Shown here: in pieces, positions 2,873 through 6,839 of the stretch
Position numbering within the stretch: the first letter of the stretch is position 1
Layout: every line of letters begins with the position of its first letter
Assembly (NCBI GenBank): GCA_017798125.1
Contig: CP059070.1
Span: 2,542,001 to 2,606,000 of the forward strand
Length of the DNA stretch: 64,000 bases
Reading direction: 5' to 3'
Source of the DNA: Cryomorphaceae bacterium
GTDB taxonomy: Bacteria; Bacteroidota; Bacteroidia; Flavobacteriales; ECT2AJA-044
Made by a program: the position numbers and the translations under genes
The notes under the pieces: model-generated
Told to the model about the DNA's origin: nothing
The model's input: the letters and a program-made list of their open reading frames with translations, nothing else
Database searches by the model: none

Positions 2873-4651
2873 TTAGTGTGCTACGGCAGAACCTGCTCCG
2901 CTCGGGATCCGGATGTCCTCAACCAGATCCTGAACATCCTGAGGAGGTTCTGGGGTAAACAAGGCTACGATCCACGCGACCGCGAAATTGATCACCATCC
3001 CGATGGTACCAAATCCTTCTGGAGAGATACCAAACCACCAGTGGTCTTTGGTTGCTGTAGCTGGATCTCCGATCCAACCCAACTTAAATCGGGCGATGTA
3101 GTAAATGGTAATTCCCAAACCGACAATCATACCGGCAATGGCGCCTTGACGATTCATGCGTTTGGAGAAAATTCCCATGACAATGGCAGGGAAAAAGGAA
3201 GCCGCAGCCAACCCAAAGGCCAAAGCCACCACCGAGGCCACAAAACCTGGAGGATTGATACCGAAGTATCCAGCCACGGTCACCGCCACTACTGCACTTA
3301 ATCGAGCAGCGATGAGTTCCCCTTTCTCTGAAATATCTGGAGCAATCTGCTTCTTGATCAAATCATGCGCGATCGAGGTAGAGATGACCAAGAGCAATCC
3401 AGCCGCTGTAGATAGTGCCGCAGCTAGACCTCCCGCCGCAACGAGGGCAATCACCCAATTGGGCAGGTTGGCAATCTCTGGATTGGCCAGTACCATGATG
3501 TCTCGATCCACAAAAAGCTCATTGGGAGAATCCAAGTTCGCATTCTCTACCATACGCTGACCATAAGGTCCTGTCTCACCCGAGAAAACGGGCTTTTTAC
3601 CGTTCACTGCACTTCCGGGCAGGTAGTTGATCTTACCGTCTTCGTTCTTATCCACCCAGGCCAATAGACCTGTTTTTTCCCAGTTTGGCACCCATTCAGG
3701 CATCTCACTGTACTCCTTGTCGCTCACCGTTTCAATGAGGTTGGTTCGCGCAAATACAGCAATGGCTGGAGCAGTGGTATAGAGAATGGCAATGAACAGC
3801 AGTGCGTATCCCGCTGAACGTCGGGCGTCGCGTACTTTGGGTACCGTAAAGAAACGGACAATCACGTGCGGTAATCCCGCCGTTCCCACCATCAAAGCTG
3901 CGGTAATGAAGAACATGTCGAGCATACTTTTGCTCCCGTTGGTGTACTCGGCAAATCCGAGTTCCGCGTGAAGTCCGTCAAGCTTGTCTAAGAGATAAGA
4001 TCCATCCGCCGCAGTTCCTCCGAATCCGAGTTGCGGAATAGGGTTTCCGGTCATTTGAATGGAGATGAAAATAGCGGGCACCATAAAGGCGAAGATCAAA
4101 ACGCAATACTGTGCTACTTGGGTATAGGTAATCCCCTTCATTCCACCGAGCACCGCGTAGAAGAACACGATAGCCATACCGATGTACACTCCCGTGTTGA
4201 TGTCTACTTCCAGGAAGCGGGCAAAAACAACCCCAACTCCGCGCATCTGCCCCGCCACGTAAGTGAAGGAGACAAAGAGTGCGGCAATTACGGCAACCGT
4301 GCGCGCAACGTTGCTGTAGTAGCGGTCCCCGATGAAATCAGGAACTGTGAATTTTCCAAACTTCCGAAGATACGGAGCCAGCAAAAGAGCGAGAAGTACG
4401 TATCCTCCTGTCCAGCCCATCAGATATACCGAGCCATCGTAGCCCGAGAAGCTGATGATTCCCGCCATGGAAATAAAGGAAGCTGCAGACATCCAGTCCG
4501 CCGCTGTAGCCAAACCATTGGCTAGAGGAGAAACACCCCCACCGGCAACATAGAAGTCTTTTGTAGAGCCGGCACGAGACCAAATTGCGATTCCGATGTA
4601 GAGCGCAAAGGTGATACCAACAATGATATAGGTCCAAATTTGAATATCCAT
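2873..4651 (-). CDS. actP: cation/acetate symporter, ActP-like (SSS family)
   Basis: 592 residues. The N-terminus has DFYVAGGGVSPLANGLATAADWMSAASFISMAG, the hallmark of ActP/VC_2705-type sodium:solute symporters, followed by about 13 membrane helices with a periplasmic insertion near residues 300-380. The family moves acetate and other short carboxylates with a cation across the inner membrane. DUF4212 directly upstream is the usual partner of the VC_2705 subfamily, which supports the call over a generic SSS member. The segment with DKNEDGKINYL is EF-hand-like but lies in the insertion and may be incidental. It is probably cotranscribed with the porin upstream and the sensor downstream. Confidence 0.9.
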   Translation of the reverse strand: MDIQIWTYIIVGITFALYIGIAIWSRAGSTKDFYVAGGGVSPLANGLATAADWMSAASFISMAGIISFSGYDGSVYLMGWTGGYVLLALLLAPYLRKFGKFTVPDFIGDRYYSNVARTVAVIAALFVSFTYVAGQMRGVGVVFARFLEVDINTGVYIGMAIVFFYAVLGGMKGITYTQVAQYCVLIFAFMVPAIFISIQMTGNPIPQLGFGGTAADGSYLLDKLDGLHAELGFAEYTNGSKSMLDMFFITAALMVGTAGLPHVIVRFFTVPKVRDARRSAGYALLFIAILYTTAPAIAVFARTNLIETVSDKEYSEMPEWVPNWEKTGLLAWVDKNEDGKINYLPGSAVNGKKPVFSGETGPYGQRMVENANLDSPNELFVDRDIMVLANPEIANLPNWVIALVAAGGLAAALSTAAGLLLVISTSIAHDLIKKQIAPDISEKGELIAARLSAVVAVTVAGYFGINPPGFVASVVALAFGLAAASFFPAIVMGIFSKRMNRQGAIAGMIVGLGITIYYIARFKLGWIGDPATATKDHWWFGISPEGFGTIGMVINFAVAWIVALFTPEPPQDVQDLVEDIRIPSGAGSAVAH

Positions 4652-4938: not shown

Positions 4939-6180
4939 TTATAAGAAGATCATGGCTTGCATTACCCACTGACTGGTGTTCTCACCGGCAACAGGTGAAG
5001 CATTTCGGTACTCCAGTGAAACTTTAGCATTGTGTCCGCTGATGAAGTAGTTGGCTCCCAATCCCATATGGTTGTAGTTACCGTCAAGAGCATCCACTCC
5101 GCGAGACAAATACGTGACATAAGGCTGCCAACGACCAATCTTGGTAAAAGCAGGAAGGAGAAGACCGACCTGACCATAGAAACCGTTACCCGAAGCGATG
5201 ACTTGGCTAGAGCCGGCCAATTGATAATTGGGACCATAGTCCATAAGGTAATAGGCCGCTAGGGCCGAAATCGCCATTTCATTTCCTATAGGCGCATCGT
5301 AGAAGGCGTCGAATCCAAAGTGGCTCACATTGTGGCCAATGGTATCGCCCATCGCATCTTGAGTCACACTTCCGTTGGTGTGGGTGTAGAATCCAGCTCC
5401 GATGTTGAAGACCGTCTTTTTCCCAAGGTAGGTACCCACTAGGTAGGGAAGCTTATTCGATTCTTGATCCAAGAATTGATACATGAAATATCCTTGATAG
5501 ATATTCCCGGCATCCTTACCTCCGAAAAGTGCAGCTCCTCTGTATACCGCCTGATCGCCGGTAATGGCCAAACCAGCCTGCTGGTCTAAGCTATTGACCG
5601 CGGCCTTATTCCAAGCCACTCGATAATCGAGCTTGCCTACTTTACCTTTGGCGTATACCCCGAGGTGACGGGCAAACTGATCCGTCGTTCCAATCGTTGC
5701 CCAAGCCATCCGCGTATTGTCCAGCGGCATGATGTTCAGGGTACTCTGGTTGGTCAATCGGCTAATTCCGTTCCAATAATGGAGACCAGAACCCAGGTAG
5801 ATATTGTCGGTCACTTTGAATTCCACCCAAGCATCGTGCATAAACAGCTGCGCTTGAGAACTGAATCCAACGGGATCCAATCCAGCAGGAGTTAAGTTAT
5901 TCAGTCCAAAGTGGGTCAGAATCAAAAAACGATCGCTCAGTTGTGCGAACATGAGCAATCGCGAACGGCGCAGCCGCGGTGTAATTTGAAATTCGTCGTT
6001 GGAGTTCTGGGCCCCGGTTAGCCAAGCTTGGTGCCAAGTGATGAGTCTAAAGTACTTTTGACCATCATCGCTCAAGTCGACCTTAAGACCGCTTCCGTAT
6101 TCGGTTGGGACATTTTGTGCGGAGGACGTGTAGTGTAGACATAGGCCGACCACCGCGAAGAGTAGCATCGCTTTTCTCAT
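4939..6180 (-). CDS. outer-membrane porin
   Basis: 413 residues with a signal peptide (about 1-21, cleavage after SSA) and then alternating beta-strand sequence to a C-terminal QWVMQAMIFL strand typical of a beta-barrel. It resembles Bacteroidota porins often labelled phosphate-selective or short-chain solute porins. It is the first gene of the likely operon that continues with DUF4212, the acetate symporter and the sensor, so it probably admits the same substrate through the outer membrane (inference). Substrate cannot be read from sequence. Confidence 0.85.
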   Translation of the reverse strand: MRKAMLLFAVVGLCLHYTSSAQNVPTEYGSGLKVDLSDDGQKYFRLITWHQAWLTGAQNSNDEFQITPRLRRSRLLMFAQLSDRFLILTHFGLNNLTPAGLDPVGFSSQAQLFMHDAWVEFKVTDNIYLGSGLHYWNGISRLTNQSTLNIMPLDNTRMAWATIGTTDQFARHLGVYAKGKVGKLDYRVAWNKAAVNSLDQQAGLAITGDQAVYRGAALFGGKDAGNIYQGYFMYQFLDQESNKLPYLVGTYLGKKTVFNIGAGFYTHTNGSVTQDAMGDTIGHNVSHFGFDAFYDAPIGNEMAISALAAYYLMDYGPNYQLAGSSQVIASGNGFYGQVGLLLPAFTKIGRWQPYVTYLSRGVDALDGNYNHMGLGANYFISGHNAKVSLEYRNASPVAGENTSQWVMQAMIFL

Positions 6181-6260
6181 AGTTAAAGGTTTAGAGTTGG
6201 TGGACTTCGGCCGAAATCTCAGGATCGAAACTCACTGAAAACCTAGAGAAAAACGAATAT

Positions 6261-6289
6261 GATATATACAAATGCTAATTTGCTATATC
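6261..6289. promoter_or_regulatory. AT-rich palindrome upstream of porin operon
   Basis: Imperfect inverted repeat: CAAAT and ATTTG arms around a central GCTA, with outer GATATA/TATATC arms. It lies about 80 bp upstream of the porin start. A similar palindrome, also centred on GCTA, lies upstream of the InsA-like gene at 6754-6776. It is a candidate operator. Confidence 0.5.
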
Positions 6290-6293
6290 TTTT

Positions 6294-6311
6294 GCGCCTC
6301 ACGGCGCGATG
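6294..6311 (+). repeat. dispersed hairpin repeat, copy 1
   Basis: GCGCC, loop TCAC, GGCGC, tail GATG. It lies 3 bp beyond the stop of the InsA-like gene. It belongs to the family of hairpin repeats found throughout the window. Confidence 0.75.
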
Positions 6312-6314
6312 GGA

Positions 6315-6725
6315 CTAGCGGAAACGCTCCCATTTAATGAGCATAAATTTATCGCCGAGCTCTGTTACGATCATCCCAGCTCCGGATATATTGTCTCGAT
6401 CCCGATAAAAATCCATCAATTCATCGTGGGTCAAGATTTTATAGGTAGGATGATAATCACCAGTGGTCGGGCGCTTGATCTTATGGGCCCGTACCCAGTT
6501 CATGACACTGACATGACTGACGCCCAAAAGTCGTTCAATTTCTCGGAAGCTGACCCCCTCAACGTAGAGCTGTAGCGCTTTAACGACATAATAGTCATCG
6601 ATCTTCTTACCCAACTTACTCACCGTGAAGTGGTAACCACAATTCTTACAGCGGAATCGTTGTCGCCCGCCGACGACACCACTTTTTACATTGCGCTCAC
6701 TTTGACAACGGGGGCAGATTTTCAT
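6315..6725 (-). CDS. orphan InsA-like zinc-ribbon/HTH DNA-binding protein
   Basis: 136 residues. Residues 1-30 form a CPRC...CKNCGYHF zinc ribbon like that of IS1 InsA and IS1595-type transposases. Residues 45-80 form a helix-turn-helix (GVSFREIERLLGVSHVSVMNWV). The remaining ~55 residues end GDKFMLIKWERFR and are not part of InsA. No DDE catalytic domain, InsB-like frame or terminal inverted repeats are visible, so this is not an intact transposon. It lies upstream of, and on the same strand as, the porin/acetate operon, and both units carry GCTA-centred palindromes. A domesticated transposase-derived regulator of that operon is my preferred reading. A decayed IS remnant is the alternative. 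Confidence 0.75.
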   Translation of the reverse strand: MKICPRCQSERNVKSGVVGGRQRFRCKNCGYHFTVSKLGKKIDDYYVVKALQLYVEGVSFREIERLLGVSHVSVMNWVRAHKIKRPTTGDYHPTYKILTHDELMDFYRDRDNISGAGMIVTELGDKFMLIKWERFR

Positions 6726-6733
6726 GGTTTTAA

Positions 6734-6748
6734 GTGTCCCGAGGACAC
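6734..6748 (-). promoter_or_regulatory. hairpin in leader of InsA-like gene
   Basis: GTGTCC and GGACAC are perfect complements around a 3-nt loop, ending 9 nt before the start codon. It would fold in the mRNA close to the ribosome entry site, so translational control is possible. Confidence 0.4.
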
Positions 6749-6753
6749 CTGTA

Positions 6754-6776
6754 TATATTTATTTAGCATAAATATA
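6754..6776. promoter_or_regulatory. perfect AT-rich palindrome upstream of InsA-like gene
   Basis: TATATTTAT at 6754-6762 and ATAAATATA at 6768-6776 are perfect 9-bp inverted arms around TTAGC (GCTAA on the minus strand). A TATATTTA box inside the minus strand resembles a Bacteroidota -7 element, so binding here would block or position RNA polymerase. The centre matches the palindrome at 6261-6289. Confidence 0.5.
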
Positions 6777-6789
6777 GAAAATTAGCCAT

Positions 6790-6814
6790 AAAAAAACCCC
6801 GCACAAGGCGGGGC
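6790..6814 (-). terminator. terminator of rpsF-rpsR-rplI
   Basis: On the minus strand a CCCCGC/GCGGGG stem with a 5-nt loop is followed by seven T residues, 26 nt after the rplI stop. Confidence 0.9.
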
Positions 6815-6839
6815 TTTCTATTCGGATGAGGTATATACC

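Follow-up and report, generated by a model that had tools for sequence, protein, structure and literature searches.

A gene resembling insA of the insertion sequence IS1 lies between two similar palindromes, directly ahead of a predicted acetate uptake operon, in the genome of a Cryomorphaceae bacterium. Is such a gene the leftover of a mobile element, or could it regulate the genes next to it? Transcription factors derived from transposases are well known in eukaryotes. Among the papers that we searched, we found no published case of a comparable transposase-derived regulator in bacteria and, to our knowledge, there are few cases where the ends of an element itself serve as operators. From the window, a stretch of 64,000 nucleotides to which the positions below refer, and from related loci, we arrive at a view that we consider probable: the host has domesticated the auto-repressor InsA of an IS1 element along with the terminal repeats, and the resulting dedicated regulator acts locally, on its own gene and on the uptake of acetate or short-chain acids.

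Results

The InsA-like gene (6315–6725, minus strand) encodes a protein of 136 amino acids with a zinc ribbon (Cys4, Cys7, Cys26, and Cys29) and a helix–turn–helix (HTH; helices 44–80). This zinc ribbon–HTH pair identifies an InsA homolog in the hhalign comparison and with the profile NF050000 (IS1/IS1595 zinc domain; 40.8 bits, passing the cut-off); the IS1 profile NF033558 gave 80 bits, under its cut-off of 100. A genome search found the gene intact and in one copy in the 2.84-Mb genome, and no DDE or InsB partner was found for it, in agreement with the first-pass annotation, which had described a zinc-ribbon/HTH gene without a DDE partner. The same annotation noted a conserved-looking extra C terminus, and this part is indeed strongly conserved in relatives. 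In the structure model, residues 95–133 form a beta-alpha-beta-beta module, VTELGDKFMLIKWERF, that is nearly invariant among relatives and confidently modelled. Foldseek searches with the whole model and with the module alone gave no match below E 0.001, and a second look with VIA-align matched the HTH only (GcrA DNA-binding domain, Z 6.2). The median dN/dS across close pairs of InsA-like genes was 0.014, a rough figure because dS was near saturation; judged by these comparisons, the gene is under strong purifying selection.

The family profile aligned with IS1 transposases over residues 1–113 of 136 (hhalign, probability 99.8%, E 7.6e-30). The homologous part consists of InsA and the start of the catalytic domain and reaches roughly as far as the A6 frameshift site in related elements. 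The position of the first catalytic aspartate is not kept in the family, and residues 114–136, which are nearly invariant, have no IS1 counterpart. We considered whether the C terminus could represent a whole DDE domain and ruled this out, as the IS1 homology stops at about residue 113. In the tree, the orphan family was monophyletic (71 of 71 members, support 0.91) and nearest to IS1 elements of Bacteroidota, Methylobacter, and Methanomethylovorans. Among the members of the orphan clade, we found no copy with an intact IS structure; a copy elsewhere with IS termini would have spoken against domestication.

Relatives of the gene are numerous, more than 550 in the genome collection, and the best 80 of these share 65–72% identity and all come, judged by title, from Bacteroidota. 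At most of the 80 best loci, insA immediately precedes a porin–DUF4212–symporter operon and points in the same direction; at the loci without the DUF4212–symporter pair, a porin and an MFS metabolite:H+ symporter take its place, except at one, which has the acetate transporter AceTr (NF038013, 256 bits, cut-off 50). We also searched 392 Bacteroidota genomes, sampled evenly and independently of these loci, at an E-value threshold of 1e-15 and obtained insA matches in 32 genomes. In 30 of them the gene was intact and present once; the matches in the other two were weak, broken by stops, and part of true IS1 elements. Each of the 30 intact genes stood immediately ahead of a transporter operon and in the same orientation, the operon being of either the porin–DUF4212–ActP type or the (porin–)MFS symporter type. 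Among 111 loci, the order insA, porin, DUF4212, symporter, SSF kinase was found in 59 and the order insA, porin, MFS, SSF kinase in 37, and acetyl-CoA synthetase remained near insA while the transporter type varied. The distribution of the family is patchy: insA occurs in 30 of the 392 genomes, and 113 genomes carry the symporter but no insA. The absence of the gene from beside this operon in close relatives would have counted against its role there; the one congener compared lacks insA and also lacks a symporter above the family cut-off. Neither of the two refuting conditions set by the first-pass annotation thus came out against its proposal.

By these sequence comparisons, the InsA-like gene is conserved across Bacteroidota, and the synteny with acetate or short-chain-acid uptake operons holds phylum-wide. 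Mobile IS1 elements are recognized by multiple or variably placed copies and by a DDE domain or InsB partner; here there is one copy per genome in fixed synteny, and both the domain and the partner are missing. The picture is that of a domesticated transposase, as the first-pass annotation had proposed: immobile, syntenic throughout the phylum, single-copy without IS partners, under purifying selection, and with catalytic residues lost.

The uptake operon of the window begins with an outer-membrane porin gene (4939–6180, minus strand), the product of which is weakly ExtI-like. It continues, on the same strand, with the symporter small subunit DUF4212/TIGR03647 (4674–4928), the VC_2705-type sodium/solute symporter "ActP" (2873–4651; TIGR03648, 885 bits), and a CrbS-like sensor kinase with SSF, HisKA, and HATPase domains (3–2615), which extends past the window edge. 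Beyond the window, the operon goes on with a receiver-only response regulator, two acyl-CoA synthetases, one PrpE-like (propionate-CoA-ligase-like) and one Acs (acetate-CoA ligase), a cNMP/CBS/DUF294 protein, and a DnaQ-type exonuclease. The receiver-only regulator of this genome (L146, 11595–11957, 120 aa) comes directly after the SSF kinase and overlaps it by 8 nt. In relatives, too, the transporter genes are normally succeeded by an SSF kinase, a receiver-only regulator, and acyl-CoA synthetases. The rplI neighbor of this window is not common to relatives. We infer acetate as the substrate from the symporter family, the neighboring acetyl-CoA synthetases, the replacement by AceTr, and the CrbS-like kinase.

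The kinase is strongly associated with insA, being present in 28 of 30 insA-positive and 13 of 362 insA-negative genomes (Fisher P value 1.4e-30, a test that ignores phylogeny). A receiver-only response regulator, with 0–7 residues after the receiver, was found in all 20 other insA-positive regions examined. We compared these with 20 insA-negative regions around the same symporter type: in a local search, kinase and receiver were absent from 19, and the remaining one had a match to a different, longer SSF-like kinase. The receiver-only regulator is nevertheless not exclusive to insA-positive genomes, an idea that we rejected, for 12 of the 13 insA-negative genomes with a kinase have it next to the kinase gene, and in the thirteenth it was not detected. 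Because the receiver adjoins the kinase in insA-negative genomes as well, it is not specific to insA, and its link to the InsA-like protein is a hypothesis. We know of no DNA-binding partner in the insA-negative lineages with this layout. Two loci, L261 (genome G167) and L014, show the order insA, (porin), MFS, acetyl-CoA synthetase with no SSF kinase or receiver nearby, and in G167 the kinase was not found genome-wide at E 1e-90.

The palindromes of the locus had been described as a perfect one with 9-bp arms at 6754–6776, upstream of the InsA-like gene, and a related one at 6261–6289, upstream of the operon. The former is exact, with a 5-nt spacer; when this intergenic region was Markov-shuffled, only about 1% of the shuffles yielded an inverted repeat like it, and the window contains three. 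The latter does hold a related 23-bp unit, but as a palindrome it is imperfect, with arms of 5 bp (CAAAT-GCTA-ATTTG). Both sites represent one asymmetric 23-bp unit, TATAnnTnnGCTAAWTnnnTATA, in opposite orientations flanking the InsA-like gene. Candidate operator site I consists of the full unit TATATTTATGCTAAATAAATATA (6754–6776, minus strand), just upstream of the gene, and a partial second unit in tandem, GCTAATTTTCTATA (6773–6786, minus strand), with a period of 19 bp. Candidate operator site II is the inverted unit TATACAAATGCTAATTTGCTATA (6265–6287, plus strand); it is located between the stop codon of the InsA-like gene and the porin gene and stands where a right-hand terminal repeat would. 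The two sites are mutually inverted around the gene over 24 nt, with 71% complementarity.

When the whole 2.84-Mb genome was scanned with the 23-bp pattern, allowing up to two mismatches, only 6754–6776 and 6265–6287 matched. A motif matrix applied to the 64 kb ranked the three units at the top (20.8, 19.7, and 14.4 bits; next 7.5), and since the top three matches are exactly these units, the sites are not due to chance. The regulon scans were pattern searches; with no further full site in this genome beyond this locus, we rejected a genome-wide regulon. Similarly, in 27 other insA-positive genomes the double site was almost always that of the locus alone, with a few single extra matches.

An unsupervised motif search in 80 upstream regions returned t.ttttTTGCTAAaTTa.TATATTTaTGCtAAatT.aTAT (37 bits). 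The GC core and the 19-bp period are kept in relatives, and the double site occurs exactly once per matching locus, immediately upstream of insA. Downstream of the insA stop codon, the median best score was 7.0 for the reverse motif, compared with −0.4 for the forward motif and −1.4 after shuffling; site II exceeded the 95% level of the shuffles in 52% of the loci and is degenerate in many relatives. In the 80 relatives, the median distance between the end of the upstream site and the insA start codon is 2 nt, and a TAnnTTTG-like −7 box overlaps the unit junction of site I (exact in 6 of 80, with one mismatch in 73 of 80). Because it overlaps the −7 box and nearly abuts the start codon, site I appears well placed for autorepression.

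Two hairpins were observed in the same intergenic regions. On the minus strand, a terminator-like GC hairpin with a T-run (6792–6821, identified by eye) ends the rpsF–rpsR–rplI operon and separates it from the InsA-like gene. The leader that separates site II from the start of the porin gene (6181–6250) may form a hairpin, AGGTTT/AAACCT, and inspection by eye shows related complementarity in relatives; folding of the alignment was unconvincing, and we do not retain a conserved 5′-leader hairpin ahead of the porin gene.

The candidate operators resemble the ends of IS1. We scored IS1 elements with the operator matrix, which was built from the orphan family only. The terminal inverted repeat of Tenacibaculum IS1, GGCATTGCTAATTTAATATAG, was the top match in its record with 21.0 bits, above all 200 shuffles, and the other end of the element was second best with 9.9 bits. 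In two further IS1 elements, the terminal repeat was also the top match (11.9 and 10.1 bits; 95% levels of shuffles 9.5 and 10.0, respectively), and in a fourth, archaeal element the match was not significant. The inverted sites flanking the InsA-like gene match the core of the IS1 repeat, the outermost GGCA tips not being conserved, and the layout is therefore that which left and right terminal repeats would leave. The earlier statement that the gene lacks terminal repeats was thus misleading, as the mutually inverted sites match the terminal inverted repeats of related IS1 elements. The sequence fits the retention of the repeats as well as the evolution of new sites under a conserved binding specificity. 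In IS1 elements on Tenacibaculum finnmarkense plasmids (L263, 644–664 and 1367–1387; L266), the terminal repeats are nearly identical to the family operator. A domesticated regulator might also bind the ends of resident IS1 elements.

Discussion

The role of the InsA-like protein as an autoregulator and acetate-uptake regulator, suggested by the first-pass annotation, is supported at the sequence level by the synteny with uptake operons, the candidate operator before the gene, and the inverted one before the operon. We infer the DNA binding of the protein, the sign of the regulation, the substrate, and the input signal from the sequence comparisons. According to the proposed mechanism, the InsA part of an IS1 transposase would have become a dedicated local transcription regulator; the DDE catalytic domain would have been lost past about the frameshift position, with a short conserved C-terminal module in its place. 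The predicted binding sites would be the old IS1 terminal inverted repeats that flank the gene. The one on the left, over the insA promoter and start region, would provide autorepression, while the inverted right repeat, at the head of the porin–transporter operon, would place acetate or short-chain-acid uptake under control. Repression at both sites is the sign that we somewhat favor, and it would be relieved once acetate is sensed, through the SSF kinase and the receiver or through a ligand bound by the C-terminal module. The nearest precedent is native InsA, a published repressor of its own promoter in IS1 (PMC12428005).

Other explanations of the locus fare less well. IS1 transposase ancestry and repeat-like flanks could equally be expected of a functionless IS1 remnant, decaying or recently inserted, with the sites as its leftover ends; against this stand phylum-wide synteny, intact reading frames in all 30 sampled genomes that gave a clear match, strong purifying selection, and a conserved C terminus foreign to IS elements, and given the conservation and the dN/dS we rejected a recent remnant and give the idea practically no credence. 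The palindromes could also be ordinary promoter or terminator features with no tie to the InsA-like protein, as both lie in AT-rich intergenic DNA and the −7 box, mostly with one mismatch, falls on the unit junction of site I. Such features would hardly be confined to two places in the genome that both flank the InsA-like gene, conserve a GC core and a 19-bp period, and match terminal repeats, and we regard this explanation as very improbable.

The regulator reading leaves two candidates for the input, receiver protein and module ligand, which we rate about equally, each as a tentative possibility. The InsA-like protein may be the DNA-binding output of the CrbS-like system, the kinase phosphorylating the receiver and the receiver binding and switching the InsA-like protein. 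The receiver-only regulator in every insA-positive region examined and the strong enrichment of the kinase argue for this, and an output is otherwise missing here because CrbR of Pseudomonas is itself a LuxR-family DNA-binding regulator (PMC5715377). The same receiver beside the kinase in insA-negative genomes, and insA without a kinase in G167 (genome-wide) and at L014 (locally), argue against it. Alternatively, the C-terminal module might sense a metabolite of the acetate, acetyl-phosphate, or acetyl-CoA type, with the kinase regulating other targets. The near invariance and confident model of the module and the presence of insA in at least one genome that lacks the kinase are consistent with metabolite sensing, but the module lacks a significant structural match and insA and the kinase co-occur very strongly. 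The most inclusive version, an ancient IS1 kept whole across Bacteroidota with InsA as the output of the SSF kinase and receiver and with both repeats as operators, seems to us rather unlikely.

If the regulator reading is right, the phylum offers a simple system of one small protein, two sites, and one operon in which to study how the auto-repressor of an insertion sequence turns into a host regulator. It would also give Bacteroidota a named regulator for the uptake of acetate and point to an output for a kinase that is paired with a response regulator lacking a DNA-binding domain.

Among known systems, the closest by protein are the IS1 transposases of Tenacibaculum, Methylobacter, and Methanomethylovorans plasmids, at about 37–52% over the matched segments; these differ in being full transposases with a −1 frameshift and a DDE domain. 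The InsA-like protein shares with IS1 InsA the zinc ribbon and HTH, homology over residues 1–113 with its end near the frameshift point, the predicted binding to IS1-type terminal repeats, and an own promoter under a candidate operator. Unlike IS1 InsA, it is an immobile single-copy orphan without InsB or DDE, with a C-terminal module of its own and linked to a host operon. The CrbS/CrbR (MxtR/ErdR) system of Vibrio and Pseudomonas resembles the locus in its SSF-domain histidine kinase beside an acetate symporter and acs. The regulator of that system, CrbR, belongs to the LuxR family of DNA-binding proteins and uses the ACTU motif (PMC5715377), whereas the response regulator of the present system, in this genome as in the 20 other insA-positive regions examined, is receiver-only and carries no LuxR-type output.
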